Part shown: positions 37,231 through 55,568 of the stretch, piece by piece
Layout of the letters: every line of letters begins with the position of its first letter
Numbering within the stretch: the stretch's first letter is position 1
Source of the DNA: Methylothermaceae bacterium
Lineage (GTDB): Bacteria > Pseudomonadota > Gammaproteobacteria > Methylococcales > Methylothermaceae
DNA length: 64,000 nt
Reading direction: 5' to 3'
NCBI GenBank assembly: GCA_026981855.1
Contig: JALSIB010000022.1
Span: 1 to 64,000, forward strand
The notes under the pieces: generated by a model
The model's database searches: none
Told to the model about the DNA's origin: nothing
The model's input: only the letters and a program-made list of their open reading frames with translations
Made by a program: the position numbers and the translations under genes

Positions 37231-37734
37231 CTATAGCTTGCCTTTCCCCGCGGTGGTGATGTAGTCGGCGAGCGCCAATTGCTGTTTGCCGATATCGGCG
37301 AGCGTCTGGTGGACGCGTTTGATGACCGCCCGCATGAAGTCGTACATCAGTTCGGGGTGACGGGTGATCAGGGGTTTGAAGTCCTCCGCCCTGAAACAGA
37401 TCACCGCGGCATCACCCAGGGCCATCACCGATGCAGTGTGGGGGGTGTTGTCGATGAAGCTCAATTCACCCACCAGATCGCCTTTTTCCAGTACGTGCAG
37501 GATTCGGGGCGGGGAACCCTTTTTGAGCTCCTTGACCAGAGCCAACCGTCCGGCGGTGACGATATAGAAACTGTTGTCCGTATCTCCCTGATGGAACAGA
37601 TATTCCCCATCCTTCAGTTTTTTTTCGCAACAAGCGCATTCGGCCAGAACGCGCGCGCCCTCCTCGCCGATATAGAGGCCGAGGGGGGCCTCCAGGATCA
37701 ATTGGGTGATGTGATCGGTGTCGGGTTTTTTCAT
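37231..37734 (-). CDS. hoxI: Cyclic-nucleotide-binding-fold protein HoxI
   Basis: A 167-residue protein with a single CNB/CRP-type beta-roll (about 35-140). It shows DGEYLFHQGDTDNSFYIVTAGRLALV and GDLVGELSFIDNTPHTASVMA. There is no helix-turn-helix, so it is not a transcription factor. In Ralstonia, HoxI ends the hoxFUYHWI operon and binds the soluble NAD-hydrogenase as an extra subunit linked to NADPH activation. Gene order, length and fold match here. It overlaps hoxW by ATGA. Confidence 0.85.
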   Translation of the reverse strand: MKKPDTDHITQLILEAPLGLYIGEEGARVLAECACCEKKLKDGEYLFHQGDTDNSFYIVTAGRLALVKELKKGSPPRILHVLEKGDLVGELSFIDNTPHTASVMALGDAAVICFRAEDFKPLITRHPELMYDFMRAVIKRVHQTLADIGKQQLALADYITTAGKGKL

Positions 37735-38261
37735 CTGGATCTGACTCCGCTTGAATGGTTTTGAAAAGAAAGAGAAGCAAGGTATGCTGTCGCCGCTTCC
37801 AGATTCCGCTTGGCGCCGGGGGTCAGGCCCAGTTGCAGCGCCCAGGCGTAACCCCGGATGGTGAGAAGATGGGTTGTTGGCGCTTGGCCGAAGCATTGTC
37901 TGGCAGTGGCCAGGATGGCCGGCACCGATATGGCATGAGAGGTGAAACTGAAATCCATTCGGGGATGGACCTCTTCCAGCTGGAAGTCGGGCACATCGGC
38001 TGCTTTGGTGGCGTCCACGAACAGCACCCGTCTTTTGCGGTGGATCAAGTCTGCATCTTCCAAATGGAGTTGATAATGCCTGAGCCGTTCTCCCCGGGTG
38101 CACAGGTGGTTGTTCTCCAACCAGTCGATGAAGGCCCAGCCCAGGCCATCGTCCTGGCGTCCCACGTTGCCGATACCGTAAATCAGGCAATCGGGGGCAT
38201 CATAGTCGCGCAGGTCGATCGCGCACCTGGAGAGAGGAAACCGTTCAGCGGCCACGCTCAT
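37731..38261 (-). CDS. hoxW: Bidirectional hydrogenase maturation protease HoxW
   Basis: A 176-residue member of the HybD/HoxW protease family. YGIGNVGRQDDGLGWAFIDWL carries the first Asp ligand, and FVDATKAADV and FTSHAISVPAIL the later Asp and His. It removes the HoxH C-terminal extension after nickel insertion. The start overlaps the end of hoxH by 17 bases. Confidence 0.9.
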   Translation of the reverse strand: MSVAAERFPLSRCAIDLRDYDAPDCLIYGIGNVGRQDDGLGWAFIDWLENNHLCTRGERLRHYQLHLEDADLIHRKRRVLFVDATKAADVPDFQLEEVHPRMDFSFTSHAISVPAILATARQCFGQAPTTHLLTIRGYAWALQLGLTPGAKRNLEAATAYLASLSFQNHSSGVRSR

Positions 38262-39717
38262 CGATCAGCCTTCCATCGGTATCGTAAACACTGATCACCA
38301 GCGGCATTTGGCCCATGGCGTGGGTGGCGCAGCTCAGGCAAGGGTCGTATGCGCGGATGCCCACCTCGATGGCGTTCATCATCCCTTCGGTGATTTCCGC
38401 CTTGCCGTCCAGATATTTGTCGGCGACCGAACGGACGGTGCGGTTCATGACGGTATTGTTCTGGGTGGTGGCCACGACCAGATTGGCGAACGTCACGTTG
38501 CCTTCCCGGTTGGCGCGGTAGTGATGCAGCAGTGTGCCGCGGGGGGCTTCCACGACGCCGATACCCTCGCCGGTCCAAGCCGATTCGGGAGGGGTGAGGG
38601 TAAGCGACTCCTCCTGTAATGCCGGGTCGTTCAGCAGCTCCTTGATCAGTTCGGCGGAATGCAGGATCTCAATGGCCCGGGCCCAGTTGGTATGAAGGGT
38701 CATATCGTTGGCCTTGCCGTCGGTGTAATCGTGAAAACGCTCCAGCGCCGCCTTGGCGAGGGGGGTGTTTTCGCCATAGCTGCGGGTCACGTTGACCCGG
38801 CCGAGTGGCCCGACCCGGACCGAACCCGCCTCGCGCCCCAGCGCCTTGAGGTAGGGGAACTTCATGTAGCTCCATTCCTCGGTGGCTTCAGCGAAATGCT
38901 CCAGGTAGTCGTGGTAATCGAACTCGGCGATCACCGATTTGTTTTTGTCCACGATCCGCATCTTTCCGTGATAGTAATCGACGTTACCTTCTTCGTCCAC
39001 CAGGGAAAGGTTGAGGGCGGGTACCTCGGCAAAACTGTCCACTTCCTTGCGATGTTTCTCGTGGAAATCGTAAAACAGTTCCAGCCCTTCCAGTGCGTAT
39101 TCGATCACCTGATCGACGGACAGCAGGTCGTCCCCGCCCTTGAGCAGGCGGTCGCGTTCCTCGATGCTGAGATGCTTGTTGACACCCCCGGGAACCGAGC
39201 TGATGCCGTGCATGCGCTTTCCGAAGACGGTTTTGATGACTTCCTGACCCCACTTGCGCAGGGCGACCACCCGTTTCACCAGGCCGGGGTTGGCTTCCAC
39301 CAGGCCGAGCACATTGCGTTGTTCGGGGGGGGCGTCCATGCCAAACAGCATTTCCGGAACGATCAGGTAGAAATAGGCGGTGGTGTGGGACTGGAGTTGC
39401 TGTCCGTAATGGCCGAGCCGGCGAATCTTTTCAGCCGCGGGAAGGATGCGCATTCCGCTGGCGTGACCGACGCCGACGATATCGTCCAGCGCCTTGGCGC
39501 CGCACAGGTGGTGACTGACAAAGCAGATACCGCAGATCCGCTGCATCAGCATTGGCGCTTCCCAGTAGGGGTGGCCCTGAATGAATTTTTCGAAACCGCG
39601 AAATTCCACCACGTGCAATTTGGCGTCCATCACGCGGTTGTCGTCATCCAGGATGACAGTCACTTTGCCATGGCCTTCGATTCGGGTGACGGGGTCTATG
39701 ACCAGTTTTCTACTCAT
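38245..39717 (-). CDS. hoxH: NAD-linked bidirectional hydrogenase large subunit HoxH
   Basis: A 490-residue group 3d large subunit. It starts [18 protein letters not shown]; the nickel ligands are RICGICFVSHH (about 60-70) and DPCLSCATH, followed by a propeptide of about 24 residues beginning AMGQMPLV, the HoxW substrate. With HoxY it splits or forms H2 in the cytoplasm. Twelve bases separate it from hoxY. Confidence 0.96.
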   Translation of the reverse strand: MSRKLVIDPVTRIEGHGKVTVILDDDNRVMDAKLHVVEFRGFEKFIQGHPYWEAPMLMQRICGICFVSHHLCGAKALDDIVGVGHASGMRILPAAEKIRRLGHYGQQLQSHTTAYFYLIVPEMLFGMDAPPEQRNVLGLVEANPGLVKRVVALRKWGQEVIKTVFGKRMHGISSVPGGVNKHLSIEERDRLLKGGDDLLSVDQVIEYALEGLELFYDFHEKHRKEVDSFAEVPALNLSLVDEEGNVDYYHGKMRIVDKNKSVIAEFDYHDYLEHFAEATEEWSYMKFPYLKALGREAGSVRVGPLGRVNVTRSYGENTPLAKAALERFHDYTDGKANDMTLHTNWARAIEILHSAELIKELLNDPALQEESLTLTPPESAWTGEGIGVVEAPRGTLLHHYRANREGNVTFANLVVATTQNNTVMNRTVRSVADKYLDGKAEITEGMMNAIEVGIRAYDPCLSCATHAMGQMPLVISVYDTDGRLIDERGR

Positions 39718-39729
39718 GGCGGGCCTCGT

Positions 39730-40359
39730 TCAATCGTAGCGGATGAGGGATGTCGGGAGATCGACCTCGCGTCCGTTCACCAAGTCGTCAAGTACCTTGA
39801 AGATGGAAGCGGCGTCGGGGGGACAGCCGGGAATGAAGTAATCCATCTTCACCACTTCATGACAGGGATAGACGTGGGTGGTGATCTTGGGGATGTCGGG
39901 GTGATGGGGGATGCGAGGCGGGGCATCCGTTTCGGCTGTGGGTGCGTCGAGATAAGCCTCTTTCAGGCACTCCCCCAGCGGCACCATGTTGCGCATGGCC
40001 GGAACCCCGCCCCATACCGCGCAGGCCCCCACGGAGATCAGAATGTCGCAGTTTTCCCGGAAATGCTCCAACGTCTCGATATTTTCATCGTTGGCGACGC
40101 CGCCTTCGATGAAGCCGATGGCGCAACGATGGGGAATGCGTTTGACATCGGTGAGCGAGGAGCGGGTGATGTTGATCTTGTCTAGCAGTCTCAGCAGATT
40201 TTCATCCATGTCCAGGAATGAGAGCGTGCATCCCCAACAGCCGCACAGGGCGATCATGGCTACTTGGATTTTTTCCTCCCTCTTGGCGCGTGTTTGGGGG
40301 TCAAGGGTGGCCGCCGGGAGAGTGTGGGAGGGGATTTCGGGTTGTATCGGTCTGGTCAT
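39730..40359 (-). CDS. hoxY: NAD-linked hydrogenase small subunit HoxY
   Basis: A 209-residue small subunit with one [4Fe-4S] proximal cluster. Ligands lie in ALCGCWGCTLSFLD (about 38-51), VGACAVWGG and IPGCPPDA. The short length, without medial and distal clusters, is normal for HoxY. It overlaps hoxU by ATGA. Confidence 0.95.
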   Translation of the reverse strand: MTRPIQPEIPSHTLPAATLDPQTRAKREEKIQVAMIALCGCWGCTLSFLDMDENLLRLLDKINITRSSLTDVKRIPHRCAIGFIEGGVANDENIETLEHFRENCDILISVGACAVWGGVPAMRNMVPLGECLKEAYLDAPTAETDAPPRIPHHPDIPKITTHVYPCHEVVKMDYFIPGCPPDAASIFKVLDDLVNGREVDLPTSLIRYD

Positions 40360-41060
40360 TTTCGGCTCCTTTCCAGAGTGCGTTCGCGGATGGATTTGAC
40401 TTCGAATTTTCGTTGACCGATGGGCTTGTCGTAACCGACACCCTTGGCGATGATGCAGCCTACCGGGCAAAGCTCCGCCGCTTCGCGCACCTGCTCCGGT
40501 GGCATGCGGTCTGCCAGCGCGACATCGATTTCGATGCTGGCGTGGGTGCCACGGTCATCGATGGTGAAAATCTTGCGGCCCGTTTCGTGGTCGCGCACGA
40601 ATTCCACACAGCGCTGGCAGAAGATACAGCGGTCGCGTTCGAGCCAGATATATTTGGCGACGTGTTCCCGCGTTCTCGGCGGAAAACGATAGGGAAACCG
40701 TGACACCAGCATGCCGACTTCGTAGCCCACCGCCTGCAATTCACAGCGGCCGCTCTTCTCGCAGCTGGGACAATTGTGGTTGCCCTCGGCGAACAGCAGT
40801 TCCACCAGCGCCTTGCGCATGTCGTTCAAGTCGGCGGCATCGACCTCTACCGTCATGCCCTCCGCGACCGGTACGGTACAGGATGCCATCACATTGCCAT
40901 TGACCCGCACTGAACAGGCCCGGCAGGTTCCCAGGCAGGGCTTGCCGCGCTGATAGCAGAGGGTGGGGATGTAGACGCCATTGTCGGCGGCGACATCCAC
41001 CAGAAGCGTGCCGGCAGTGGTTTCGATTTCTTTGCCGTCCAGTGTGATACGGATATTCAT
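40356..41060 (-). CDS. hoxU: Diaphorase Fe-S subunit HoxU
   Basis: A 234-residue NuoG-like electron carrier. A plant-type [2Fe-2S] domain has CYQRGKPCLGTCRAC and C in VMASCTV. Next is an H-x3-C-type cluster (HNCPSCEKSGRC), then cysteines CIFCQRCVEF and CPVGC. It wires HoxF to HoxYH. Overlaps by ATGA with hoxF and hoxY. Confidence 0.95.
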   Translation of the reverse strand: MNIRITLDGKEIETTAGTLLVDVAADNGVYIPTLCYQRGKPCLGTCRACSVRVNGNVMASCTVPVAEGMTVEVDAADLNDMRKALVELLFAEGNHNCPSCEKSGRCELQAVGYEVGMLVSRFPYRFPPRTREHVAKYIWLERDRCIFCQRCVEFVRDHETGRKIFTIDDRGTHASIEIDVALADRMPPEQVREAAELCPVGCIIAKGVGYDKPIGQRKFEVKSIRERTLERSRK

Positions 41061-42865
41061 TTTGATTTCTCCTGGGCCAGTGCCTGGCAGGCATGTTCAT
41101 ATTCCCGGGTCGCATTTTCCAGGTCGAAGGAAGGCAGTAACGGCCCCTGTGGCCGGGCCAGTTTTTCGCGGTAGATCTGGGGGAATTTTTCCAATGTCGT
41201 CAGTAAAGGCTTGGGCGCGGTGGTTCCGAGCCCGCAACGGCTGGTGCCGCGCATCAGATTGCCCCAGTTGACGATGTCATCAAGATCTTGCCGGGTCGCC
41301 CGGCCGGCGATGATCAGGCGTATTTTGTGATGGAGATCGACCCCACCGGCGCGGCAGGGAACACAAATTCCGCAAGACTCGTCGACGAAGAAGCGCATGA
41401 AATGCTCGACCACCCGGAGCAGGTCGCGGCTGTGGTCGAAGATCATGAACGAGCCGTTGCAGGACAGGTCGCTATAGCACAACCGGCGCTCGCCGTCGGC
41501 GGCTGCTGAAACACATTCGCCGGAAGGCCCGCTGATCTGCACGGCCCGGGTGTTCCGGGCTCCGACGGTATCAAGGACTTCATTGAGGGAAACGCCCCAT
41601 TCGATTTCATAGATGCCTGGGGCGGCGCAATCGCCGGAGACGCTCAACAATCTGGTGCCGCTGGATTCCGGGGTGCCCAGGCTGCTGAACCAGTCGGCGC
41701 CCTGTTCCATGATGGCGGTGACAGCGGCGAAGGTTTCGACGTTATTGATGCACGTGGGCATACCGAGGTAACCCTGCTGGATGGGATAGGGGGGTTTGAC
41801 TCGCGGGGTTCCCCGCTTGCCTTCGCAGGATTCGATCAAAGCGGTTTCGTCACCGCAAACGTAAGCGCCCGCACCCATCTGAATGCGTATGTCGAAGTCG
41901 AACTCCCGTCCGAGAATGCTCCGTCCCAGCAAGCGTTCGGCGCGCAGATCCGTGATCTGCTGCTCCAGATAATCTTTGAGATACCAATATTCGGCCCGCA
42001 GATAGAGAATTCCGGTGCGGGCACCGATGGCATGAGCGGCGACGGTCATGCCCAGCAGGACATCTCGGGGGGAGCGGGTGAGAAGAACCCGGTCCTTGAA
42101 GGTTCCCGGCTCCCCCTCGTCGGCGTTGCAGATCACGACTTTTTCCCGTCCCGGGGCCTCGCGCCCGAGGCGCCACTTCAGGCCGGTGGGAAAGCCGGCA
42201 CCGCCACGGCCGCGGATTCTCGACAGCGTGACTTGTTCCACGACCTGTTCCGGCAGCAGATCAAGGGTTTTTTCCAGTATCTGCGCGTGCGGCCTGTCTT
42301 GCTGGAAGAAGACAGGGCCGCAGATACGGATATTGTCCGCCACCTGGGCCTGAACGTATTCCAGCCGCCGGGTGTCGAACTGGTCCGGATTGGCGATTTC
42401 AGATGGAGTCGCGCCCTGTTTCAAGCGGTTGATGATAGTGCGAACCTTCTCCGGGGTCAGGCGGGTGAATACGACCTCGTCCACCATCATGGCCGGTTCC
42501 TGGTCGCTGAGCCCGATACAGTTGGTGTCGTACAATCCGAAGGTCGCGGACGGATCGACGCTTCCGAAAGTGGTGCCGGTTTCCCGCTCAAGGGTCGCGC
42601 GAACCTCGTCGTAGCCTTGCATCCGGGCGATGACGGTGTCGGCCAGGTAGAGGGTATGCCGGCCCGCCGGCTTGTCGTGAAAAAAATGGTAGAAAGTCAG
42701 GGTTTCCCGGACATCGTTGGCAGACATGTTCAGCCCTTCGGCCAATGCCGTGACCGCAGCGTCCGGAATATAGCCGGCTTGGCGTTGGATGTCCCACAGC
42801 ATGTCGATCAGGCGGGTCTTGTCCGCGTGGTAACGTTCCAGGATAGGGTGGATATTTGTAGTCAT
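41057..42865 (-). CDS. hoxF: Diaphorase flavin subunit HoxF
   Basis: About 602 residues. The N-terminal NuoE-like part (about 1-150) is followed by the NuoF-like module with FMN/NAD motifs GRGGAGFPTGLKW and NADEGEPGTFKDR, YVCGDETALIESCEG, and the [4Fe-4S] site ESCGICVPCRAG with a distal Cys in SRCGLG. The expected [2Fe-2S] cysteines of the NuoE part are largely missing, as is common in HoxF. It reduces NAD+ with H2-derived electrons or the reverse. I take the ATG at 42865, which has GAGGTG at proper distance; an ATG ten codons earlier is possible. Confidence 0.94.
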   Translation of the reverse strand: MTTNIHPILERYHADKTRLIDMLWDIQRQAGYIPDAAVTALAEGLNMSANDVRETLTFYHFFHDKPAGRHTLYLADTVIARMQGYDEVRATLERETGTTFGSVDPSATFGLYDTNCIGLSDQEPAMMVDEVVFTRLTPEKVRTIINRLKQGATPSEIANPDQFDTRRLEYVQAQVADNIRICGPVFFQQDRPHAQILEKTLDLLPEQVVEQVTLSRIRGRGGAGFPTGLKWRLGREAPGREKVVICNADEGEPGTFKDRVLLTRSPRDVLLGMTVAAHAIGARTGILYLRAEYWYLKDYLEQQITDLRAERLLGRSILGREFDFDIRIQMGAGAYVCGDETALIESCEGKRGTPRVKPPYPIQQGYLGMPTCINNVETFAAVTAIMEQGADWFSSLGTPESSGTRLLSVSGDCAAPGIYEIEWGVSLNEVLDTVGARNTRAVQISGPSGECVSAAADGERRLCYSDLSCNGSFMIFDHSRDLLRVVEHFMRFFVDESCGICVPCRAGGVDLHHKIRLIIAGRATRQDLDDIVNWGNLMRGTSRCGLGTTAPKPLLTTLEKFPQIYREKLARPQGPLLPSFDLENATREYEHACQALAQEKSK

Positions 42866-42895
42866 GGTTTCATTCACCTCGATGCCTTGAGTCAT

Positions 42896-43395: not shown

Positions 43396-43957
43396 TCAGG
43401 GGAGCCCCGGCAAGTGATACTTCCGAATCCGGTAGCGAAGCGTTTCCCGGGTGGTGTTCAACAATCGGGCGGCCGCAGTGACATTGTTGGCGGTTCTTTC
43501 GAGGGCGGTCTGGATGATCCGCTTTTCCATCTCTTCCAGCGACAGCGAACCGTCCAGAGGAAGACGGATCGTGGAATCTTCGTCGACGGGAGGTGTCTGC
43601 CCCGGCAGATGATACAGATCCTCACGGAAATGGCCTTGCCGGATCATTTGCTGGAGATCCTCGTTGCTGGCGGCGATGATCTGAATATCGACCTGGATCT
43701 CTTTTTCACCCCCAAGCCGGCGGAATCGTTTGTCTTCGATCGCCTTGAGCAATTTCGCCTGGGTGGCGAGTTCCAGTTCACCGATTTCATCGAGAAACAG
43801 TGTGCCTCCGTCCGCTTGTTCGAGCAGACCGTGGTGTCTTCCTTTGGCGCCGGTGAAGGCGCCCGGTTCATAACCGAACAGCTCCGCCTCCACCAGCTCA
43901 TGAGGCAGCGCCGCGCAGTTCAGTTCCACCCAGGGGCCGTCCGCACGGCAGCCGGGC
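43396..43957 (-). pseudogene. Decayed sigma-54 response regulator (no receiver, no Walker A)
   Basis: The frame begins inside the AAA+ domain at [22 protein letters not shown]-like sequence and keeps GAFTGA and [11 protein letters not shown], then ASNEDL. It jumps from FREDLYH straight to [11 protein letters not shown] and the Fis helix-turn-helix ([21 protein letters not shown]). Missing are the whole receiver domain, Walker A and the sensor II/lid segment, so two deletions are needed. The 5' break coincides with the broken end of the kinase gene. The DNA-binding tail could still fold, but activation is impossible. Confidence 0.8.
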
Positions 43958-45049
43958 GTCGAGACCGGCGGGGATTTTGATATGCAGATGGACGCTGGCG
44001 GGAAGCTGATAATGCAGTAATTCCAGGGTTTCTTCCACGACCTCGACCAGATCCAGACGGCGCAAGGGTTCAGGCTGGTGACGGGCCTGATCCAGCAATT
44101 GATTGAGGTGGCGGCTGAGACGTTCCAGCTCGGAAATGATCAGATCGAACCGGTGCCGGGTCTCCTCATCCCCGCTCTCGGTGCGCAGGTTATGGAGTGC
44201 GACCCGGATTCCGGCCAATGGATTGCGTAACTCATGGGCCAGTCCGGCTGCCAACTCGCCGACCGCCGCGAGCCTTTCGGCCCGGACCAGATCACGATTC
44301 TGGGCCAGCAGGGCGCCGGTGGCCTGGCGAACCTGGGTTTCCAGTTGTTCGGTGCGTTCACGCCGTACCTGTTCCAGTTCCGCCAGCCGGTTGACCAAGT
44401 GGTTGTAATTGCGCAAAAGCGTTTGCCAGGGAGGGGTGCTGTCCCGGGTGTCGATGGGTTCGAATCGCCCATCCGCCAGTTGGACGAGCAAGGTGTTCAT
44501 GCGTCGCAAGGGCGCTATCAGCCAACGCCGCGCCAGAATGGCCGCCAAAGCCGCCAGGAATATCAGCACCGCCATACCCAACAGGCTGGTTTCAAGTTCG
44601 AGTTCCGTGTCTGTCACGACTTTGGCCAGCAGTTCGCGTTCACGCCGGTTCTCCCGGGCGAGCAGGGACTGGAGCTGATGAATAGCGGATTCGATGTCGG
44701 GGGGGGCGGAATTCGAACCGGCCAGGGCCTCCAGCAAGGGTGGAATGGCCTCGGGCCAATCAGACTTTAAGGTATTCAATTCGTGACGGATTTCTTCCAG
44801 GAGGCGGGGATCGGGATGATCGGGCGACAGGGCCTGGAGGCGGGGATGGATTTCCTGCAGATGATTGACCTGGGAAACGGTGGCCTCGATCCGGTGGATG
44901 CGTTCAAGATTGCGCCAACTGAGAAGAATGAAGATCGCCATCATGGCGATCACGATCAGGCTCAACAACACCGCACCAGCGACGATGGGGCGGTACAGGA
45001 GGCGATTGATGGGAGGCACGGGGTATCCGGTCATGGAAAGAGGGTCCAT
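43945..45049 (-). pseudogene. Truncated sensor histidine kinase (ATPase domain lost)
   Basis: About 365 residues of a ZraS/NtrB-like membrane kinase. It has two transmembrane helices (about 20-45 and 157-175) around a helical periplasmic sensor, a HAMP region, and a HisKA box AHELRNPLAGIR. The HATPase domain breaks off within its first strand at [10 protein letters not shown], where the sequence crosses into the regulator gene in another frame. N, G1 and G2 boxes are absent. One deletion removed the kinase 3' half and the regulator 5' half. Whatever signal this pair served is lost. Confidence 0.8.
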
Positions 45050-45473: not shown

Positions 45474-46184
45474 TCAAAAATGAAAGCCGATATTGGTGAA
45501 CAGGATATGGTCGACCAGGTTGTCTTTGGAGGTTCCCTTGCGGACGAATTGGTTCATGTACCCCACCGTCAGTCTGGTCTTGGCGATCAAGGGGATGTCC
45601 AGGCCGGCGAAGACACGGTTTTCGGTGAAACCGTCGCTGCGCCAGCTGCTGGAATTGAGATACCAGAATACTTCGTCATTGAGCAGAAAGTTCAGCTCGG
45701 GAAAGCCCGGAAGCGGATGGCTCCATTGGAAAAACTGGCGCAGCCGCAGGCCCATGTTATTGCTGTGGAGCTTGTCATTCACCCGTTCCTCCAATCGCGT
45801 CCGGGCGGTCATCCGTCCCCACTCGTGTGACAGGCTGCGCCAGCCAAGTTCCTGGTAGGCCCGGTTCTCGTTGAACCGGTCCAGCCAGTTGCGGGTGTAG
45901 CCCAGTCCCGCGTGAAAGTGGCGGTCGAAGTGATAATTGAACTGGACGAACAGCAGGTTCTCGGTCAGCTTGTTGGCGCGGTTGCCGTACTGTTCCTGGG
46001 CAAGGTGGCTCAAACGGGCCTGATTGAGCACGCTCCAGCTGAATTTTTTCAGCGCGGGTGAAAGACTTTGGAAACTTCCCTGGGCGGAGAGTCCATACCA
46101 TCCAAAGAAGGCATTTTGCGCTGCACCCGCGCCTTCGGCGACTCCCAATCCCAGAATCAAGAGAAAAAATATACGAAACTTCAT
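45474..46184 (-). CDS. DUF2490 outer-membrane beta-barrel protein
   Basis: A 236-residue protein with a Sec signal ([21 protein letters not shown]) and alternating strands ending in aromatic FHF, as in small outer-membrane barrels. DUF2490 marks include [20 protein letters not shown] and RTRLEERV. The function is unknown. The ATG overlaps the hyfI stop by ATGA, so it is co-translated with an inner-membrane complex, which is odd for a barrel. Confidence 0.85.
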
Positions 46185-46708
46185 TGTTTGATTCTCCTTC
46201 TGCCCATTGCTTCGAGGATACCGCCGAGGAGGGCGGCTGGTGGCGGGGGGCAGCCTGGAATTTTCACATCCACGGGGATGACGTTTTCCACCGCCCCGCA
46301 ACTTGCGTAGGATTCTCCAAACTCTCCACCACAAACGGCGCAGTCGCCGCAGGCGATGACCCATTTGGGATCCGGGGTGGCGTCATAGGTCCGGCGCAGG
46401 GCCGCTTCCATGTTGCGGGAAACAGGGCCTGTCACCAGCAAGGCGTCGGCATGGCGCGGAGAAGCGACGAAATGGACCCCGAAGCGCTCCACATCGTAGT
46501 AGACGTTGTTCAAGGCATGGATTTCCAGCTCGCAACCATTGCACGAGCCGGCATCCACCTCGCGGATGGCCAGGCTGCCTGCGAAATCCTTGTCGATCAG
46601 GCGTTTGACCTCCACGCCCAGTCTTTCCACATCCGGATCGCGCTCGATTTTGCGTAGGGATTCGGTCTTGAGACCGGTCTTGAGCATCTTGACGTATTGT
46701 CGCCACAT
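46181..46708 (-). CDS. HyfI/HycG-like (NuoB-like) Fe-S subunit
   Basis: A 175-residue subunit with the single [4Fe-4S] site of the NuoB/HycG family: SCNGCELEIHAL (about 55-66), ACGDCAVCGG and IPGCPPPP. All four ligands of an N2-type cluster are retained, so it can carry electrons even though its partner large subunit lacks nickel ligands. It sits after hyfG, separated by a 114-base insert carrying a palindromic repeat. Confidence 0.9.
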   Translation of the reverse strand: MWRQYVKMLKTGLKTESLRKIERDPDVERLGVEVKRLIDKDFAGSLAIREVDAGSCNGCELEIHALNNVYYDVERFGVHFVASPRHADALLVTGPVSRNMEAALRRTYDATPDPKWVIACGDCAVCGGEFGESYASCGAVENVIPVDVKIPGCPPPPAALLGGILEAMGRRRIKQ

Positions 46709-46744
46709 GATGTTGTCTCTTTGGTTTATTTAATTTGGTTTTCA

Positions 46745-46816
46745 CCGCAGAGACGCAGAGGACGCAGAGAAAAAATAAAAAATTTAAAAAACTCTGCGCT
46801 CTCTGTGTCTCTGCGG
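46745..46816. repeat. Palindromic MITE-like repeat between hyfG and hyfI
   Basis: Two 25-base arms (46745-46769 and 46792-46816) are complementary at 22 of 25 positions. They begin CCGCAGAGACGCAGAGGACG on the left and surround an A/T-rich core of 22 bases. Such CGCAGAGACGCAGAG palindromes recur in many proteobacterial genomes. It is the only sizeable gap in an otherwise overlapping operon, so it looks inserted. Confidence 0.75.
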
Positions 46817-46822
46817 GGAGTC

Positions 46823-48394
46823 CTAAAGATCGACCCCGGAATAGGAACCGTTGACCGACTTGTTACACACTGGAAAATCCGGCACGATGTTTTCCAGCAC
46901 GATCCGCTCCAGGGCCGGCCAGTTGAGCCAGCTGGGGTCCCGGGGGTAATAACGGTCGATACGGCCATTCTTCCCGAAGCGCACATAGGTGATGATCTCT
47001 CCGCGCCAGCCTTCGACGATGCCAAGCCCCTCGGCGCCTTCGTCAAGTTCTGGAAGGTCCACCCGGACTTCTCCCGCGGGTAACCTGCCCAGCAGCACCC
47101 TCAACAGCCGCATCGCCACCCGGATCTCCTTGTAACGGATCCAGAAGCGCGAGCCCACGTCTCCCACCTCCTCGACCGGCACCTTGACCTTGAGCTGGTC
47201 GTAGGGGGGATAAGGGGCATCGCGGCGGGCGTCGAAGGATTGGCCGCTGGAACGGCCGACGTAGCCCAGACAGCCCAGGGTGGCGGCGGTTTGTGGTGTC
47301 AGGATGCCGGTAGTGTAGAGCCTGTCTCCCAGGGTGGTGTTGCGATCCACGATGTCCAACAGTTCATCCAGTTCGCGCCCCAGCCGGTTGAGGGCCGTAT
47401 CGAGCCGCTCGATTGCTTCCCTGTCGAGGTCCACCGCGACGCCTCCGGGGACGACCCGGTCCATCAGCAGGCGGTGACCGAAGACATCGCGGTTGTCGCG
47501 CAGCCAGTTTTCCCGCAGACGGCCGAACTGGTAATGGGCGAAGGCGTAGCCGACATCGTTGCAGATCGCACCCATATCGCCCAGATGATTGGCGATCCGC
47601 TCCCGCTCGGCCAGGATGGCGCGCAAAGAGGCGGCTCTGTCCGGGATTGTGATGCCCGCGGCCCGTTCCATGGCCAGACAGGCGGCCCAGGCATGTCCGA
47701 CCGTGGTGTCCCCCGAGACCCTTCCCGCCAGCCGGGCCAGCCCTTCGGGATTCCGGCCTTCGGCCAGTTTCTCGATCCCCTTGTGGACATAGCCGAGGTG
47801 TTCCTCGAGGTTGAGCACGGTTTCGCCCACTGCCTGAAAGCGAAAATGTCCCGGTTCGATGATCCCGGCATGGACCGGCCCCACCGGAATCTCATAGACA
47901 CTGGCGCCCTGGGCTTTGACGAAAGGGTAGTCCTTGTCGGGGGGCGTCTTCTCCAGGGGATTGCCGGCGAGCGGGAAGTCCTTGCGCAGCGGATGTTCGT
48001 CCCCGCTCCAGGCCTGGTGGCGGGTCCAGCGGCGCGGGTCGGGATGGTCCAGAAAGCGGATGCCGAACAAATCCTGAGTATGACGCTCGCACCGATCGGC
48101 GGCCAGGAAATGCGGTGTTTGGGAAGGCAGCTCCGGGGTCTGGGGAGAAATCTCCGTTCTCAGCAAGACATACTTGCCTCCTTTTTCAAGCAGGCTGTTG
48201 ACCCGCAGGGTGTCTCCCAGGTCTTCGGCCCAACCGGCGCTCCAGCGCCATCCGGCTTCCCTGGCGAGGCGGGCGGCGTTTCCCCAGTGGCCGGATTCGA
48301 TTTGCCATACCCGGGCCGGCAAAAGCTCGTGTTCGCCCTGCCTGGGGATGCCCTCGGTTTCCAGGAGAGAAACAAGATCGTTCACGTGGGTCAT
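46823..48394 (-). CDS. HyfG/HycE-like (NuoCD-like) subunit lacking NiFe ligands
   Basis: A 523-residue fusion of a NuoC-like part (about 1-150, HTQDLFGIRFLDHPDPRR) and a NuoD/large-subunit part (PVGPVHAGIIEPGHFRF at about 170-186). Where hydrogenases carry RxCGxC, it reads AGRVSGDTTVGH (223-234); where they carry DPCxxC, it ends VCNKSVNGSYSGVDL. No four-cysteine nickel site can form, so it is not a hydrogenase. It belongs with energy-converting hydrogenase-related (Ehr) complexes of unknown chemistry. It overlaps hyfF by ATGA. Confidence 0.88.
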   Translation of the reverse strand: MTHVNDLVSLLETEGIPRQGEHELLPARVWQIESGHWGNAARLAREAGWRWSAGWAEDLGDTLRVNSLLEKGGKYVLLRTEISPQTPELPSQTPHFLAADRCERHTQDLFGIRFLDHPDPRRWTRHQAWSGDEHPLRKDFPLAGNPLEKTPPDKDYPFVKAQGASVYEIPVGPVHAGIIEPGHFRFQAVGETVLNLEEHLGYVHKGIEKLAEGRNPEGLARLAGRVSGDTTVGHAWAACLAMERAAGITIPDRAASLRAILAERERIANHLGDMGAICNDVGYAFAHYQFGRLRENWLRDNRDVFGHRLLMDRVVPGGVAVDLDREAIERLDTALNRLGRELDELLDIVDRNTTLGDRLYTTGILTPQTAATLGCLGYVGRSSGQSFDARRDAPYPPYDQLKVKVPVEEVGDVGSRFWIRYKEIRVAMRLLRVLLGRLPAGEVRVDLPELDEGAEGLGIVEGWRGEIITYVRFGKNGRIDRYYPRDPSWLNWPALERIVLENIVPDFPVCNKSVNGSYSGVDL

Positions 48395-49857
48395 TGCGGC
48401 ATTCCTCCACTGATGAGTTGGGCGGCATGGTCGAACCAGTCAGCCAGGACACCGGGAATCGCCAGGCCCAGAAGCAGCACCAGAGCCAGGTGGGCGAAGA
48501 CCGGCATCATGTTGGCCTGCACTGGTTTCTGGCCTTCAGGTTTCCTCCCGAAGACGATGGGATGCAGGTGCCGGAACAGCCCGCCGAAGGCGATGGCAAG
48601 CCCAAGAAGCAGCGGCAGGGCCAGCCAGGGATAGCTCTCCATGGTGGCCACCAGGACCAGAAACTCACTCACGAATACGCCGAAAGGTGGAAAACCGGCG
48701 ATCGCCAGGGTGCCGACCAACAGTCCCCAGCCCACCTGGGGCTGGGTCGCGATGAGGCCGCGGATCTTGTCCATCCGCTGGGTGCCGGCGATCTGGGAAG
48801 CATGACCGACGGTGACGAAGATGGCCGATTTGGTCAGGGAATGAACGGTCATATGCATCAGGGCGGCGAAGGTCGCAAGCGGGGTGCCGATACCGAAGGC
48901 GAAGGTCATGGTCCCCATGTGCTCGATGGAGGAATAACTGAACAGACGTTTGATGTTCCGTTGACGGTGAAGGAAGAAGACCGCCACCAGAAACGACAAC
49001 AAGCCGAATCCCATCATCAGGTAACCGGGCAGGGGACCCGGCACCGCCTGAGTGACGATCATCTTGCTGCGCACGATGGCGTACAGGGCATCGTTGAGCA
49101 ACAGGCCGGAGAGAATGGCCGACATCGGTGTCGGACCTTCTGAATGAGCGTCGGGCAGCCAGCTGTGCAGCGGTACCAGTCCTACTTTGGTGCCATAACC
49201 GACCAGCAGGAATACGAAGGCGATCTTCATCACCGTGGGGTCGAACTCGGAGGCGTGGACATACAGGGTGGTCCATTCCAGCGCCTCGTCCCCGGTGCCC
49301 AGGATCTGGGAGGCGGCAAAATAGAGCAGAATGGTACCGAACAGCGCCTGGGCGATGCCGACCCCGCACAGGATGAAGTATTTCCAGGCCGCTTCCACCG
49401 ATTCGGGAGTGCGGTAGAGGCTGACCAGGAGCACCGTCGCCAGGGTCGCACCCTCCATGGCCACCCACAGGATGCCCATGTTGTTGGTCACCAGAATCAG
49501 GTACATGGCGAGCATGAAGCCCTGGTACATGGCGTAATAGAGACGCAACCGCCGATGGGTCAGGCGGCCGATCTCGCGCTCGTGCTCCATGTAGGGTCCG
49601 GAGAAGATGCCGGTGGTCAGTCCCACCAGGGCGGTCAGGGCGATCAGGTAGACACTGAAGGAATCCACCAGCCACCAGTGATCGTCCGAGATCAGGGTTC
49701 CGGCGCGTAGCACGATCAGCGCCAGAATCACCGAGATGGCGAAAGTGGCGGCGTTGACCCAGTTGTTGAAGCGTCCGGCCCAGGGCTTGTGACCCACCAG
49801 GGCCAGGACCGGCATGGCCAGGAGAGGAATCAGCAATAACAGGTAGAGTGCGATCAT
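48391..49857 (-). CDS. HyfF-like (NuoN/NuoM-like) antiporter subunit
   Basis: A 488-residue membrane protein with about 14 helices of the Mrp/complex I antiporter family. The core segments are MEGATLATVLLVSLYRTPESVEAAWKY (helix 5 Glu), KVGLVPLHSWLPDAHSEGPTPMSAILSG (broken helix 7 with Lys) and MHMTVHSLTKSAIF (helix 10-11 Lys). These are the proton-path residues. It overlaps hyfG and hyfE by ATGA. Confidence 0.92.
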   Translation of the reverse strand: MIALYLLLLIPLLAMPVLALVGHKPWAGRFNNWVNAATFAISVILALIVLRAGTLISDDHWWLVDSFSVYLIALTALVGLTTGIFSGPYMEHEREIGRLTHRRLRLYYAMYQGFMLAMYLILVTNNMGILWVAMEGATLATVLLVSLYRTPESVEAAWKYFILCGVGIAQALFGTILLYFAASQILGTGDEALEWTTLYVHASEFDPTVMKIAFVFLLVGYGTKVGLVPLHSWLPDAHSEGPTPMSAILSGLLLNDALYAIVRSKMIVTQAVPGPLPGYLMMGFGLLSFLVAVFFLHRQRNIKRLFSYSSIEHMGTMTFAFGIGTPLATFAALMHMTVHSLTKSAIFVTVGHASQIAGTQRMDKIRGLIATQPQVGWGLLVGTLAIAGFPPFGVFVSEFLVLVATMESYPWLALPLLLGLAIAFGGLFRHLHPIVFGRKPEGQKPVQANMMPVFAHLALVLLLGLAIPGVLADWFDHAAQLISGGMPQ

Positions 49858-50534
49858 TCGTTGTCCTCGATTTCGGTCAGGCGACTGAGACGGTCCACAT
49901 CGAGCGAGTCGATGCTCTCGCGGATCTGGAAGAAAAACACCCCGAAAATCACCGCGGCCACCATCACGTCGAAGGCGACGCCCAGTTCCACCACCAACGG
50001 CATCCCGTAGGTGGAGACCACGGCCGAAAAGAACAAGGCGTTTTCCATTGCCATGAATCCCACCACGTGACTGATGGCCTGACGATGGGAGATCATCAAG
50101 AGCATTCCCAAAAGCAGCGTGGCGGCACTGGCGGCGATGATGTTACGGGTCTCCAGTTCCGACAACTCCACCACCGGGAGGGTGACATAGTAGCTGAACA
50201 CCACCAGGGAAGCCGCGCCCAGAAGCAGCTGCAACGGCCGTTTGACCTCGTCGATGGTCCGGTGCAGCCCCATGCGCAGGATCAGCCAGTGCAGCAGCAA
50301 CGGAATCAGAACCCCCTTCAGTCCCAGGGTGAGGGTGGCGGAGATGATCAAATGAGGGGAATTCTGCACGATGGCCACCAGGGCGGTGGTGGCCGCCAGC
50401 AGGATACCCTGCAGGGCGAACAGGTTGACCAGGGCGGTCACCCGGCTTTGGGCCAACATCACGAACGAGGTGAACAGAACCAGCGCGGCCAGCAGTAAGA
50501 CCGCCTGGCCATAGAGCGAAGTCAGGGTTTCCAT
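49854..50534 (-). CDS. HyfE-like membrane subunit (NuoK/MrpC-related)
   Basis: A 226-residue protein with seven helices. The C-terminal half carries HVVGFMAMENALFFSAV, where the Glu mirrors the NuoK proton-path residue, then ELGVAFDVMVAAVIFGVFFFQI. The HyfE family pairs with HyfB and HyfF in hydrogenase-4. TGATG overlap with hyfC. Confidence 0.9.
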   Translation of the reverse strand: METLTSLYGQAVLLLAALVLFTSFVMLAQSRVTALVNLFALQGILLAATTALVAIVQNSPHLIISATLTLGLKGVLIPLLLHWLILRMGLHRTIDEVKRPLQLLLGAASLVVFSYYVTLPVVELSELETRNIIAASAATLLLGMLLMISHRQAISHVVGFMAMENALFFSAVVSTYGMPLVVELGVAFDVMVAAVIFGVFFFQIRESIDSLDVDRLSRLTEIEDNE

Positions 50535-51475
50535 CAGCCAACCTCCAGAATGACGTGAGTGAGCATCCCCAACAGGGCGAGCAGGTAAGCGAATCCCAGG
50601 AAATGTTGGGCCCGGAACAGCCGCATCTTGGCCAGTACGGCTTCGGCGAGGACCAATACGACGGTGATTCCCACCAGCTTGACGAGGATGGCTATCATCC
50701 CCCAGCCCAGGGCGGCCAGGCCGAAGTTGTCCGCCAGGCCCCAAGGCATGAAGATGTTGGCCAGCAGGACCGCGTAGATCATCATCCGGATCTGGGCCGC
50801 CCATTCGATCAGGGCCAGGTGGTGGCCGCTGTATTCCAGGATCATGGCTTCGTGGATCATGGTCAGTTCCAGATGGGTGGCGGGGTTGTCCACGGGAATG
50901 CATCCGGTCTCGGCCACCGCCACCAGGGCAAGACCCAGGCCGGCGAATACGAACGACGGGCGGATGGTCAGGGGTTCGTGGAGCAGGGTGGCGATGGCCG
51001 CCGACAGATTGGTGGTGGACATGGACACCGCCAGCGTGAACACCGCCATCAGCATCGCCGGTTCCGCCAGCGAGGCCACGGTCATTTCCCGGGAAGATCC
51101 CATGCCGCCGAAGGCGGTGCCGATGTCCAGCCCCGCCAGGGCCTGGAAGAAGCGGGCCAGGGCGAAGAAGCCCACCAGCACGATCACGTCCGCCAGTCGG
51201 GCAGTAGGCAGCTGGACCGCCACCAACGGCACGATGGCCGCCGCCAGGACCGCCACCGAGAAGATGATGTAGGGTGCCATGTGGAAGATCCACGAGGCCC
51301 CCTCGGCCACCACCGTCTCCTTGCGGATCAGTTTGAACAGGTCCCGATAGGGCTGGAGCACCGAAGGCGCCATCCGGTTCTGGCTCCAGCATTTGAGCTT
51401 CTTGATCCAGCCGGCCAGCAGGGGCGCCGTGGCCACGAACAGGATCACCTGTAACAGATTCAATAACCAAGCCAT
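50534..51475 (-). CDS. HyfC-like (NuoH-like) membrane anchor subunit
   Basis: A 313-residue protein with eight helices. NuoH-family signatures are APLLAGWIKKLKCWSQNRMAPSVLQPYRDLFKL and AETGCIPVDNPATHLELTMIHEAMILEYSG, with the acidic residues of the quinone-site funnel. The MAWLLN start at 51475 forms a TGATG overlap with hyfB; a GTG five codons earlier is possible. Confidence 0.92.
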   Translation of the reverse strand: MAWLLNLLQVILFVATAPLLAGWIKKLKCWSQNRMAPSVLQPYRDLFKLIRKETVVAEGASWIFHMAPYIIFSVAVLAAAIVPLVAVQLPTARLADVIVLVGFFALARFFQALAGLDIGTAFGGMGSSREMTVASLAEPAMLMAVFTLAVSMSTTNLSAAIATLLHEPLTIRPSFVFAGLGLALVAVAETGCIPVDNPATHLELTMIHEAMILEYSGHHLALIEWAAQIRMMIYAVLLANIFMPWGLADNFGLAALGWGMIAILVKLVGITVVLVLAEAVLAKMRLFRAQHFLGFAYLLALLGMLTHVILEVG

Positions 51476-53664
51476 CAGCTGATCACCCACAGTAGAAAAA
51501 TCAAAGTGAAGAAGGAGTACCCCAGATAGACCCGGATGTTGCCGGTCTGGAGGCGGCCGATGTGGCGCACGCTCCAGCGCAGCCAGCGCTCCACGGGCTC
51601 ATAGAACCAGCGCCACAGGAGGTCGCTGACATGGAGCCGGTAGCGGATCCCGGTGACCTTCAAGCCGTCCGCGTCGGCACTCTGCTTTTCGATCTCCTCG
51701 TGGACCACGAAGCTGTCGGCGAAGATGCGCCGGAAGGGCATCGCGAAGGCGCTGGCGGTGTATTCCATCCGTGGCGTCAGAGCGCCGAAGCCGCAGTCCC
51801 ATGGATAGGCTTCGCGCTCGGGGTGTTCATGGCCGGGATGGAGCCATTCGTAACTCAGCATCCACGCCAGCCCCATGGCCAGCATCACCCCCAGGGCGGC
51901 ATACGACGCTGTATCCGCGGATACGGGGGCCAGCCACATCCAGCCCCGACTGGCGGTTTCCGGAAGCCCGCTGCCGGTCAGTTGCACGGTCAGTCCCTCC
52001 AGCAGCCGGACCAGCGGAGTCGGCAAGACACCCAGGAGCAGGCACAACCCGGCCAGCCACCCCATGCCGGCTATGGCGGCCGACGATTCGAGCCGGCGGG
52101 TGTGTTGGGCGTGGTGGCTGCGAGGCTTGCCGAGAAACACCACCCCGAACACTTTGACGAAACAGGCTGCCGCCAGTCCACCGCTCAAAGCCAGCATGGC
52201 GGCAGTGACCGGAACGAAACTGCGCAGCACCCCGCTGTCTAGGGCCGAGACCTGCAGGGCTGCCTGGTAGGTCAGCCACTCGGAGACGAAGCCGTTGAAG
52301 GGCGGCAGCGCAGAGATGCTGATACAGCCGATCAGAAACAGCACCGCCGTGACTGGCATCCGGTGGATCAGCCCGCCCATGCGTTCGATGTCCGATTCGT
52401 GGGAACGTTGCAGAATCACGCCCGCCCCCAAAAACAGCAGGCTCTTGAAGATGGCGTGATTCAGTGTGTGGCAGAGGGCGGCGATCAGGCCGATGGCGCC
52501 CAGGGTGGGGTGGCCGTCACTGTAGAACAGGATGGCCAGTCCCAGCCCCATGAAGATGATGCCGATGTTCTCCACCGAGTGGTAGGCCAGCAGCCGCTTG
52601 AGATTGTGTTGCATCAAGGCGTACAGCACTCCGAGGACCGCCGATGCGGCGCCCAACACCAGTACTACCACGCCCCATTGCCACAGCAGATCACCCAGGA
52701 GATCGAAGGTGAAGCGGATGAACCCGTACACCGCGATCTTGAGCATCACCCCCGACATCAGCGCCGAGATGTGGGAGGGGGCGACCGGATGGGCCTCGGG
52801 AAGCCACGCGTGCAAGGGTACGATCCCGGCCTTCATGCCAAATCCGATCAATGCCAGGACGAAAGCGACCGATGCCCATAGCGGTGTCAGAGTGGCCTGT
52901 TTCATGGCGGCGAAGGTGAAGCCGTCGCCAAAGCCCACCAGCACGCCATAGGCCAGAATGATGAACAGGGCGCCGATTTCCGCCATCAGCAGATAGATGA
53001 AGGCGGCGTGCCGATTGGCCGCGTGTTCGTGGGTATAGGCCACCAGGAAATAACTGGCCACCGACATCAGTTCCCAGGCGATCATGAAGAAAAAGGCGTC
53101 GGCGGCGAGCAACACCAGTTGCATGCCGGCGATGAACAGTCCGGTGGCCAGGGCCAGCAGCGACAAGGGATGGGTCCCGTGTTCATATTCGCGCACATAG
53201 TGGGGGCCGAACACCGACACTGCCAGCAACACCACGCTGATGACGCACAGAAAGAAGCCGGAGAGGGCGTCGATGTGCAGATTCCAGTCCAGCCACGGCA
53301 GCCCCAGCGGCAGGCTCAGGTCGACCGCCGCCCGGCCGATGAGGGCGGTGCCACCTCCCAGCAGGCCGGCGATCCCCGACAGTCCCAGGAGCAGGAAGCT
53401 GGCATGACGAAGCAACCGGGGATGGCGGTCGGCGCCCAGGCCAAGGAAACCGGAAGCCAGGGAGAAAGCCACGGCCAGGAGACTGAAGGGAAGGGCCGCG
53501 TCCTTGCCCTCGATGCCCCAGTAGGCAGAGACGAGCACCAGGCCCGCCGTCAGGGCGATCAGAACCTGCGGATGGCTTTTCAGTTCCCCGCTCGCGAAAC
53601 TCAGTCCCTGGCGGGCTTTGAGACGGGTTTGCCTGATCGTGGTCGCTACAAGATTACGGATCAT
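51475..53664 (-). CDS. HyfB-like (NuoL-like) antiporter subunit
   Basis: A 729-residue membrane protein with about 16 helices. It shows FFFMIAWELMSVASYFLVAYTHEHAANRHAAFIYLL (helix 5 Glu), KAGIVPLHAWLPEAHPVAPSHISALMSG (broken helix 7 Lys) and CHTLNHAIFKSLLFLGAG (helix 11). The C-terminal 200 residues include a soluble insert (HPEREAYPWDCGFGALTPRMEYTASAF) and a final helix, as in HyfB. The ATG overlaps the sulP stop by ATGA, so translation of the complex starts from the transporter message. Confidence 0.93.
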   Translation of the reverse strand: MIRNLVATTIRQTRLKARQGLSFASGELKSHPQVLIALTAGLVLVSAYWGIEGKDAALPFSLLAVAFSLASGFLGLGADRHPRLLRHASFLLLGLSGIAGLLGGGTALIGRAAVDLSLPLGLPWLDWNLHIDALSGFFLCVISVVLLAVSVFGPHYVREYEHGTHPLSLLALATGLFIAGMQLVLLAADAFFFMIAWELMSVASYFLVAYTHEHAANRHAAFIYLLMAEIGALFIILAYGVLVGFGDGFTFAAMKQATLTPLWASVAFVLALIGFGMKAGIVPLHAWLPEAHPVAPSHISALMSGVMLKIAVYGFIRFTFDLLGDLLWQWGVVVLVLGAASAVLGVLYALMQHNLKRLLAYHSVENIGIIFMGLGLAILFYSDGHPTLGAIGLIAALCHTLNHAIFKSLLFLGAGVILQRSHESDIERMGGLIHRMPVTAVLFLIGCISISALPPFNGFVSEWLTYQAALQVSALDSGVLRSFVPVTAAMLALSGGLAAACFVKVFGVVFLGKPRSHHAQHTRRLESSAAIAGMGWLAGLCLLLGVLPTPLVRLLEGLTVQLTGSGLPETASRGWMWLAPVSADTASYAALGVMLAMGLAWMLSYEWLHPGHEHPEREAYPWDCGFGALTPRMEYTASAFAMPFRRIFADSFVVHEEIEKQSADADGLKVTGIRYRLHVSDLLWRWFYEPVERWLRWSVRHIGRLQTGNIRVYLGYSFFTLIFLLWVIS

Positions 53665-55568
53665 GGTTGTTTTTCCGATGTGACAGGTTTACCTTCCAGG
53701 CCCCGGACCTCACAGCGGTCCGGCCGCTCGTTGACAAAGGCGTTGATGTAGTCGAGGGGTGGCTGAGCGAAACACCAGGCATCGGACAAGTCGAAGACCA
53801 CTTTTTTGTCACGGGGCAATTGCTCCAATTGCGCCTGCATTTGTTTCTGGACCAAGTCCATCAGCCTGGCACCTTTGATCTTTACCTCGACCTGGCCATC
53901 GCTTTCATGGATCTCAAGGAACTGGTTCAACAGCTTTGTCGCCGATTGCCGCTTCCGTGCCGCCAGCGGGTGGCTGGAGACGGCTTCGTGGGCTTCCAGG
54001 CCATGGATCTCACAATGGCCCCCACGTTTTTCATAGTCCTCACAGAACTCGTGGATGAATTCCATCACCGTGTGGTCGATGAAATCGGCGTTGGAAAGAT
54101 CGATGAGTATCCGTTTGCCCCGGGGCAGTTCCGTGAGGCTGCTTTTCAGTGACAGGAAATTGGAGAAGATCGCCACGCCATCTATGCGTACATGCCAGGT
54201 ATCCTGATCAATTTGATCGACCTGGAAGGCGATGCTGAACAGTTGCTTCAGATTGACGCCGCGCAGAACGTGGAGCACGATCTTGGTGGCGATGCCGATG
54301 GCCACCCCGATCAGCAGATCGGTGGCCAGTACCCCGAGAATGGTGACCACGAACAGGAACAACTGCTCCTTGCCGATCTCCCAGGTCTTGTAGAACTCCT
54401 GTGGCGAAGCGAGCTTGTAGCCGGTGAACACCAGCAACGCCGCCAGGGCCGCCTTGGGGATCTCGTGGATGACCGCCGGAAACAAGGCAACGAACACCAG
54501 CATGAACAGGCCATGGAAGAAATTCGACCACTGGGTGCGGGCACCGAACTGGATGTTGGCGGTGGAACGGACGATTTCCGAGATCATCGGCAGTCCGCCG
54601 ATGGCGCCGGACACCGAGGAGCCGATGCCGAGGCCGGTCAGGTCCTTGTTGAGATCGGTCTGGCGTTGCCACGGGTCCAGCTTGTCGATGGCCGCTGCCG
54701 AAAGCAGGCTTTCCAGGCTGGACACCAGGCAGATGCTGACGACCGAAATCCAGAAGGCGGTCGTGCCGATCATGGAAAAATCGGGGAAGGCGAATCCGTC
54801 CAGAAAGCTCTGGGGTACCGGTAGGAGCTCCTGAGGGCCGACGCTGTAGAAAGTGGAATGCCAGGAATATTTGTGCGGATGCTCCAGGTCGAAGTAAAGC
54901 CCCATGGCCAGTCCCACCGCCACCACGATGAGGGGGGCGGGAATGATTTGCAGCAGCCGCAAGCGGGGACGGAGAATCTCCCAGCCGATCATGATCGCCA
55001 GACAGGTGAAGCCGATGACCGCGATTTCCGGGTTCATTTCCCCCAGGGCATGGGGAATGGCCGCTAGGTTCTCCAGCAGCTCCCCCTCCGGTTTGACGTC
55101 GATCATCACGTAGAACTGCTTGATGATGATAATGATCCCGATGGCCGCCAGCATGCCGTGAACCACTGAGGCCGGGGCCAGGGCGACGAAGCGGCCGGCG
55201 CGGAGAAAACCCAGTATCACCTGGAGAATTCCGGCGACGACGATGGCTGCCAGAGCCCGGTGATAACCGGCCAGGGGATCTCCGCCTCCCAGGCTTTCCA
55301 CCGCGCCCAGGGTGACCACGATGAGACCTGCCGCCGGACCGGAAATGGTGACGTGGGAACCGTTGATTCTCGATACCAGCAGTCCGCCCACCATGGCGGC
55401 GATGATGCCGGCCATGGGGGGGAAGTTGGAAGCCATCGCAATACCCAGGCACAGGGGCAGGGCGATGAGAAAGATCTGGAAGCCGGCGATCATGTCCTGA
55501 CGCCAGCTTTCCTTCAGTCCGGCCAAGCCGGTCAGCGGAATCCTGGAACGTTCGATCGTTGCGCTCAT
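53661..55568 (-). CDS. SulP-family anion transporter with tandem STAS-like domains
   Basis: A 635-residue transporter. The 14-helix SulP core starts DMIAGFQIFLIALPLCLGIAMASNFPPMAGIIAA; SRINGSHVTISGPAAGLIVVTLGA holds the substrate-site helix 3, and GLPMISEIVRSTANIQFGARTQWSNFFHG helix 10 region. A STAS domain follows (about 440-530; LPRGKRILIDLSNADFIDHTVMEF). A second STAS-like repeat is at about 560-630 (LPRDKKVVFDLSDAWCFA). SulP proteins move sulfate, bicarbonate or dicarboxylates. Leading a complex I-like operon makes bicarbonate attractive, by analogy with DAB-type CO2 uptake, but the substrate is inferred. Confidence 0.9.
   Translation of the reverse strand: MSATIERSRIPLTGLAGLKESWRQDMIAGFQIFLIALPLCLGIAMASNFPPMAGIIAAMVGGLLVSRINGSHVTISGPAAGLIVVTLGAVESLGGGDPLAGYHRALAAIVVAGILQVILGFLRAGRFVALAPASVVHGMLAAIGIIIIIKQFYVMIDVKPEGELLENLAAIPHALGEMNPEIAVIGFTCLAIMIGWEILRPRLRLLQIIPAPLIVVAVGLAMGLYFDLEHPHKYSWHSTFYSVGPQELLPVPQSFLDGFAFPDFSMIGTTAFWISVVSICLVSSLESLLSAAAIDKLDPWQRQTDLNKDLTGLGIGSSVSGAIGGLPMISEIVRSTANIQFGARTQWSNFFHGLFMLVFVALFPAVIHEIPKAALAALLVFTGYKLASPQEFYKTWEIGKEQLFLFVVTILGVLATDLLIGVAIGIATKIVLHVLRGVNLKQLFSIAFQVDQIDQDTWHVRIDGVAIFSNFLSLKSSLTELPRGKRILIDLSNADFIDHTVMEFIHEFCEDYEKRGGHCEIHGLEAHEAVSSHPLAARKRQSATKLLNQFLEIHESDGQVEVKIKGARLMDLVQKQMQAQLEQLPRDKKVVFDLSDAWCFAQPPLDYINAFVNERPDRCEVRGLEGKPVTSEKQP

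Follow-up and report, generated by a model that had tools for sequence, protein, structure and literature searches.

The operon described here, from the genome of a methane-oxidising Methylothermaceae bacterium, almost certainly encodes a complex of the Ehr (energy-converting-hydrogenase-related) type that is not a hydrogenase, an assignment made by gene content and cysteine loss, with the Geobacter and Mycobacterium references compared by description. Its large subunit, EhrL, has conserved polar residues where a [NiFe] hydrogenase has its nickel ligands, and a gene for a SulP-family anion transporter is part of the same operon. The window, that is the whole stretch of DNA analysed, comprises 64,000 nucleotides (contig JALSIB010000022.1 of assembly GCA_026981855.1), in which the following genes lie together:

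45474..46184, minus strand: DUF2490 protein, overlapping the EhrS gene by 4 nt
46181..46708, minus strand: EhrS, NuoB-like small subunit with cluster cysteines C56, C59, C123 and C153
46823..48394, minus strand: EhrL, fused NuoC/NuoD-like large subunit without nickel ligands (from Pfam, HycE alignments, fold and cysteine inventory)
48391..49857, minus strand: HyfF-like antiporter-type subunit
49854..50534, minus strand: HyfE-like membrane subunit, its family match under the curated cut-off (the family scan used 49854-50543; the start was placed at 50534)
50534..51490, minus strand: HyfC-like (NuoH-type) membrane subunit
51475..53664, minus strand: HyfB-like (NuoL-type) antiporter subunit
53661..55568, minus strand: SulP-family anion transporter with a STAS domain, its stop overlapping the HyfB start

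A NuoB-like small subunit and membrane subunits of Mrp/NuoL, NuoH and HyfE type are found here in one cluster, as in Ehr, and the comparison with Ehr that the initial annotation had suggested fits both by gene content and by cysteine loss. HyfB, HyfC and HyfF are clear subunits of the complex-I/hydrogenase-4 type. Five successive gene junctions overlap, and the genes for SulP and HyfB are translationally coupled through a shared ATGA of 4 nt. The core of six genes (HyfB-C-E-F-EhrL-EhrS) is retained in nearly all sufficiently sequenced loci, and the DUF2490 gene comes after EhrS in several methanotrophs. No NuoI/ferredoxin-like gene lies within the operon, which bears out an earlier remark that a ferredoxin subunit is not encoded, and no formate dehydrogenase gene was noticed there. 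The 114-nt gap between ehrL and ehrS, missing in relatives, is due to a palindromic repeat at 46743-46818; three inverted pairs occur in the genome.

Two further loci of the window lie close by. A two-component system at 43396-45049 adjoins the operon and appears decayed: of the 483 residues of a relative, the kinase aligns with 1-371 alone and has no HATPase domain, and the sigma-54 regulator is without its receiver and part of its middle, although this truncation may be an assembly error instead of decay. At 37731-42895 lies an NAD-linked Hox [NiFe] hydrogenase cluster composed of a HoxEF fusion, U, Y, H and a protease-like gene, with the nickel motifs of HoxH intact.

The EhrL reading frame encodes 523 aa with both ends clean and consists of the Pfam domains Complex1_30kDa and Complex1_49kDa. 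By sequence, its best match among solved structures is HycE of the E. coli formate hydrogenlyase (7z0s_E, E 7e-63), and an AlphaFold model (mean pLDDT 90; the 173-178 loop and last residues are of low confidence, which limits fine pocket geometry) superposes on the same chain with Z 48.7 and an rmsd of 1.9 Å over 519 residues. In the pairwise alignment, and likewise in a MAFFT alignment with HycE, MbhL and Nqo4, RVCGIC of HycE is opposite RVSGDT of EhrL (residues 225-230) and DPCYSC is opposite NGSYSG (residues 515-520), so both CxxC pairs are replaced, just as the initial annotation had read from the sequence. The five cysteines of EhrL, at 102, 239, 278, 375 and 510, form no CxxC anywhere in the protein, and displaced but intact pairs are thereby excluded. 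EhrL accordingly has neither of the CxxC pairs (L1, L2) by which a group 4 [NiFe] hydrogenase is recognised. As a control, HoxH from the same window has both motifs, RICGIC and DPCLSC, which indicates that the method would detect them and that the loss of nickel ligands is specific to EhrL. [NiFe] enzymes need their nickel ligands, and from this established knowledge it follows that the EhrL complex would be expected neither to make nor to use H2. In the fold alignment the last residue of EhrL, 523, superposes on residue 537 of HycE, its mature C-terminus, so EhrL is without the C-terminal maturation peptide, which is also missing from some group 4 enzymes.

The residues that took the place of the cysteines are themselves conserved. 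Homologues were drawn from two sources, 274 genomes of the class, 35 of which carry Ehr, and named genomes, in which at least 580 candidate loci were confirmed and the best 80 retained. Across an alignment of 53 diverse large subunits, D229, N515 and Y518 never vary, S227 is found in 49, S517 in 50 and G520 in 52, position 230 is Ser or Thr in 51, and S519 is conserved as well, so that a search for conserved residues at the former nickel site, as proposed at the outset, did find them. R464 of the RG[DE] motif and E180 and H183 of EPGHFR are invariant or nearly so, and all but two of the 53 sequences end with the Leu of the C-terminal ...DL. Conservation to this degree in diverse homologues excludes chance, and, judged from these alignments, the EhrL pocket is a maintained, non-hydrogenase, polar site and not a product of decay.

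The small subunit has kept the ligands of its single cluster. All 16 aligned homologues of EhrS share C56, C59, C123 and C153, and in a set of 93 these are conserved to at least 93%, which upholds the view that the NuoB-like subunit retains four Fe-S cysteines, and their layout is that of a hydrogenase (CxxC...C...C). In the membrane arm, Glu198, Lys278, Lys309, His399, His403 and Lys407 of HyfB (82 homologues) and Glu135, Lys224, His335, His339 and Lys343 of HyfF (92 homologues) are at least 93% conserved, the position of HyfB Lys309 being occupied in HyfF by a conserved Asn255. These channel residues make ion translocation plausible and back the earlier suggestion that the complex can move protons. 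That it can also move electrons, claimed at the same time, stands in part: the cluster ligands of EhrS make it plausible, but no subunit for electron input is encoded, which counts against a redox role and leaves the pump only a candidate in that respect.

Ehr complexes have been described several times (PMC6349859, PMC10284858, PMC6728331, PMC7894505, PMC13194489), by 2005 according to a citation within PMC13194489. Members include Geobacter sulfurreducens GSU0739-45, the Rv0081-87 locus of M. tuberculosis, comammox Nitrospira and ehrABCDLS of Methylacidiphilum, and their function is given as unknown (PMC7894505, PMC6728331, PMC10284858, PMC6688271). These complexes likewise combine NuoL-, HyfC- and HyfE-type subunits with large and small subunits without NiFe ligands; the window operon differs from them in including SulP. 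For the hydrogenase-like cluster of Acidithiobacillus, given as hyfBCEFGI in PMC7735108, the motifs SGD[TS][TS][AV][GA]Y and NLSYSGHDL were already reported in 2018 (PMC6002666). They match SGDTTVGH and NGSYSGVDL of the window at nearly every position, and with these motifs and the Ehr descriptions in print the core finding is known, the window being a further example. The Acidithiobacillus loci may differ in that SulP is absent beside Ehr at the inspected loci of family f169, which is by our guess Acidithiobacillaceae.

Compared with the E. coli formate hydrogenlyase and hydrogenase-4 (HycE, HyfG), the fold and the membrane subunits are alike, whereas the window complex is without the nickel cysteines, the maturation peptide and ferredoxin subunits of the HycB/HycF type. 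Respiratory complex I (NuoB/NuoCD/NuoH/NuoL) shares the NuoCD fold (Z about 43-45) and the antiporter residues, but its NuoB has tandem cysteines where EhrS has CxxC. In the alignment with Nqo4 the His and Tyr of complex I, which we take to be its quinone-binding pair, fall on I179 and G228 of EhrL, so that a quinone, if used at all, would be held differently.

SulP recurs at Ehr operons of several lineages and there belongs to two distant SulP subfamilies, which a quick tree with very long branches serves only to place far apart. In a neighbourhood sample made up of the best 80 of at least 580 matches plus about 20 more, and so biased to close relatives, Pfam scans place SulP at 9 of the 78 genes directly upstream and at 5 of the 118 in second or third upstream position; in neither downstream set does it rank with the 25 commonest families. 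Counted per locus, SulP is upstream in 14 of 79 and downstream in 0 of 90, a comparison that ignores phylogeny and in which most cases are methanotrophs; among 35 additional loci of one order (one of them, in G207, already counted) it is upstream in four. At least seven changes of SulP adjacency fall on the EhrL tree, an approximate figure for which the incomplete contigs L056, L057 and L109 as well as L072 were scored as without SulP. In a Methylocaldum the SulP gene lies within the Ehr operon, and in the same spot, between HyfF and EhrL, a plasmid of Methylocalor cossyra holds a remnant, a 103-aa ORF (L165:9464-9775) in which a fragment of the SulP N-terminus is fused to one of its STAS domain. 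Most Ehr loci are without SulP, which together with this remnant marks it as accessory. The window SulP, considered as a candidate for the bicarbonate type (BicA/DauA), scores far under the cut-off for every NCBIfam subfamily. In the literature covered, which took in few subscription papers, we found no earlier notice of a link between SulP and Ehr, and this neighbourhood looks to be the new part of the finding.

The best-supported role would be that of an ion pump resembling complex I but with its site remodelled, and the mechanism set out below, which is read from sequence, seems to us as a whole about evenly poised between right and wrong. The membrane arm of HyfB, C, E and F, of complex-I/hydrogenase-4 type, would bear a two-protein peripheral module of EhrL and EhrS. 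The EhrS cluster would be reduced directly by a soluble donor, the simplest guess being a ferredoxin-like protein, and electrons would pass to a small acceptor in the remodelled EhrL pocket, presumably neither protons/H2 nor a quinone held by the His/Tyr pair of complex I. This redox reaction would then drive translocation of H+ or Na+ via HyfC/HyfB/HyfF, in line with the proposal for Ehr that a redox reaction in the cytoplasm is coupled to the translocation of charge (PMC6349859). In the present operon, anion movement through the co-translated SulP probably draws on the resulting gradient or local pH, or offsets it, the putative anion being most likely bicarbonate.

That the complex is instead a hydrogenase whose ligands have moved, or that the gene is in decay, is extremely improbable, even though its subunits are annotated as hydrogenase 4 or formate hydrogenlyase and the adjacent two-component system is decayed. 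Displaced cysteines were rejected on the alignment and the absence of any CxxC from EhrL, and a pseudogene on the conservation of the complex: the genes are open and overlapping, and the replacement motif is common to several phyla. A different view would make EhrL and EhrS a structural cap without redox activity on a membrane arm that acts as an ion antiporter, for instance in pH homeostasis. The subunits are of the Mrp/Mbh antiporter type, no electron-input subunit is encoded and a role in pH has been proposed for the Ehr of Methylacidiphilum (PMC6688271), but the strong conservation of the four cluster cysteines and of the pocket at the old active site would make little sense if no chemistry took place there, and we consider such a cap unlikely.

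Equally unlikely, in our estimate, is that Ehr is an inorganic-carbon machine like the cyanobacterial NDH-1MS/Cup or DAB, in which a NuoL-type arm, partnered by SulP and carbonic anhydrases, would power the hydration of CO2 or the build-up of bicarbonate. NDH-1MS and DAB share with Ehr a NuoL-type subunit and a neighbourhood that at times includes SulP and carbonic anhydrase. Besides the SulPs of two subfamilies, including that within the Methylocaldum operon, this reading draws on L093, where a gamma-carbonic anhydrase separates SulP from HyfB, on a beta-CA beside hyf in Acidithiobacillus caldus (PMC3826726), and on the nearest non-Ehr relatives of the window SulP, which are found close to DabA in three genomes. 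It also draws on the Thiomonas MAG, in which cbbM (RuBisCO), cbbQ and a VWA-domain (CbbO-like) gene directly follow ehrS (L092:6374-10899). CsoSCA-like proteins adjoin EhrS in L079, L037, L216, L219 and L220, the 35 additional loci of one order accounting for three of these cases. Those at L079:12376-13434 and L037:6232-7365 are free-standing and weakly related to carboxysomal CsoSCA (PF20686, E 1.6e-5; CsoSCA in the PDB, E 2e-4); their CMDGR and YHFS...GC motifs resemble what we take to be the metal and dyad residues, and they are possibly an undescribed group of carbonic anhydrases. Against a carbon role, SulP or carbonic-anhydrase neighbours are missing at most Ehr loci, and in the window's genome it is the other SulP, not that of the operon, that is paired with a carbonic anhydrase. 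Co-occurrence with RuBisCO or DabA, tested as backing for this role, showed no association in the 274 genomes (RuBisCO in 18 of 35 Ehr carriers and 113 of 239 others, p 0.72; DabA, p 1.0). Neither RuBisCO nor DabA (PF10070), the latter setting DAB apart, was found in the window's genome, and a Calvin-cycle autotroph was rejected for lack of RuBisCO. The SulP and carbonic-anhydrase neighbours suggest a link to bicarbonate/CO2 all the same, and we treat a carbon role as the leading novel hypothesis, short of a conclusion; that Ehr is an energised CO2/bicarbonate system, its NiFe pocket remodelled for such chemistry or the complex powering a partner SulP and carbonic anhydrase, is quite doubtful.

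Ehr-type complexes are found in hundreds of species, usually labelled hydrogenase-4 or formate hydrogenlyase, and such labels can inflate claims of H2 metabolism for methanotrophs, nitrifiers and acidophiles. The recurrent SulP and carbonic-anhydrase neighbours offer a concrete, testable hypothesis together with candidate model operons, and if it is true, NDH-1MS and DAB would be joined by Ehr as a third route, of which the SulP-Ehr operon of methanotrophs would be the compact form.
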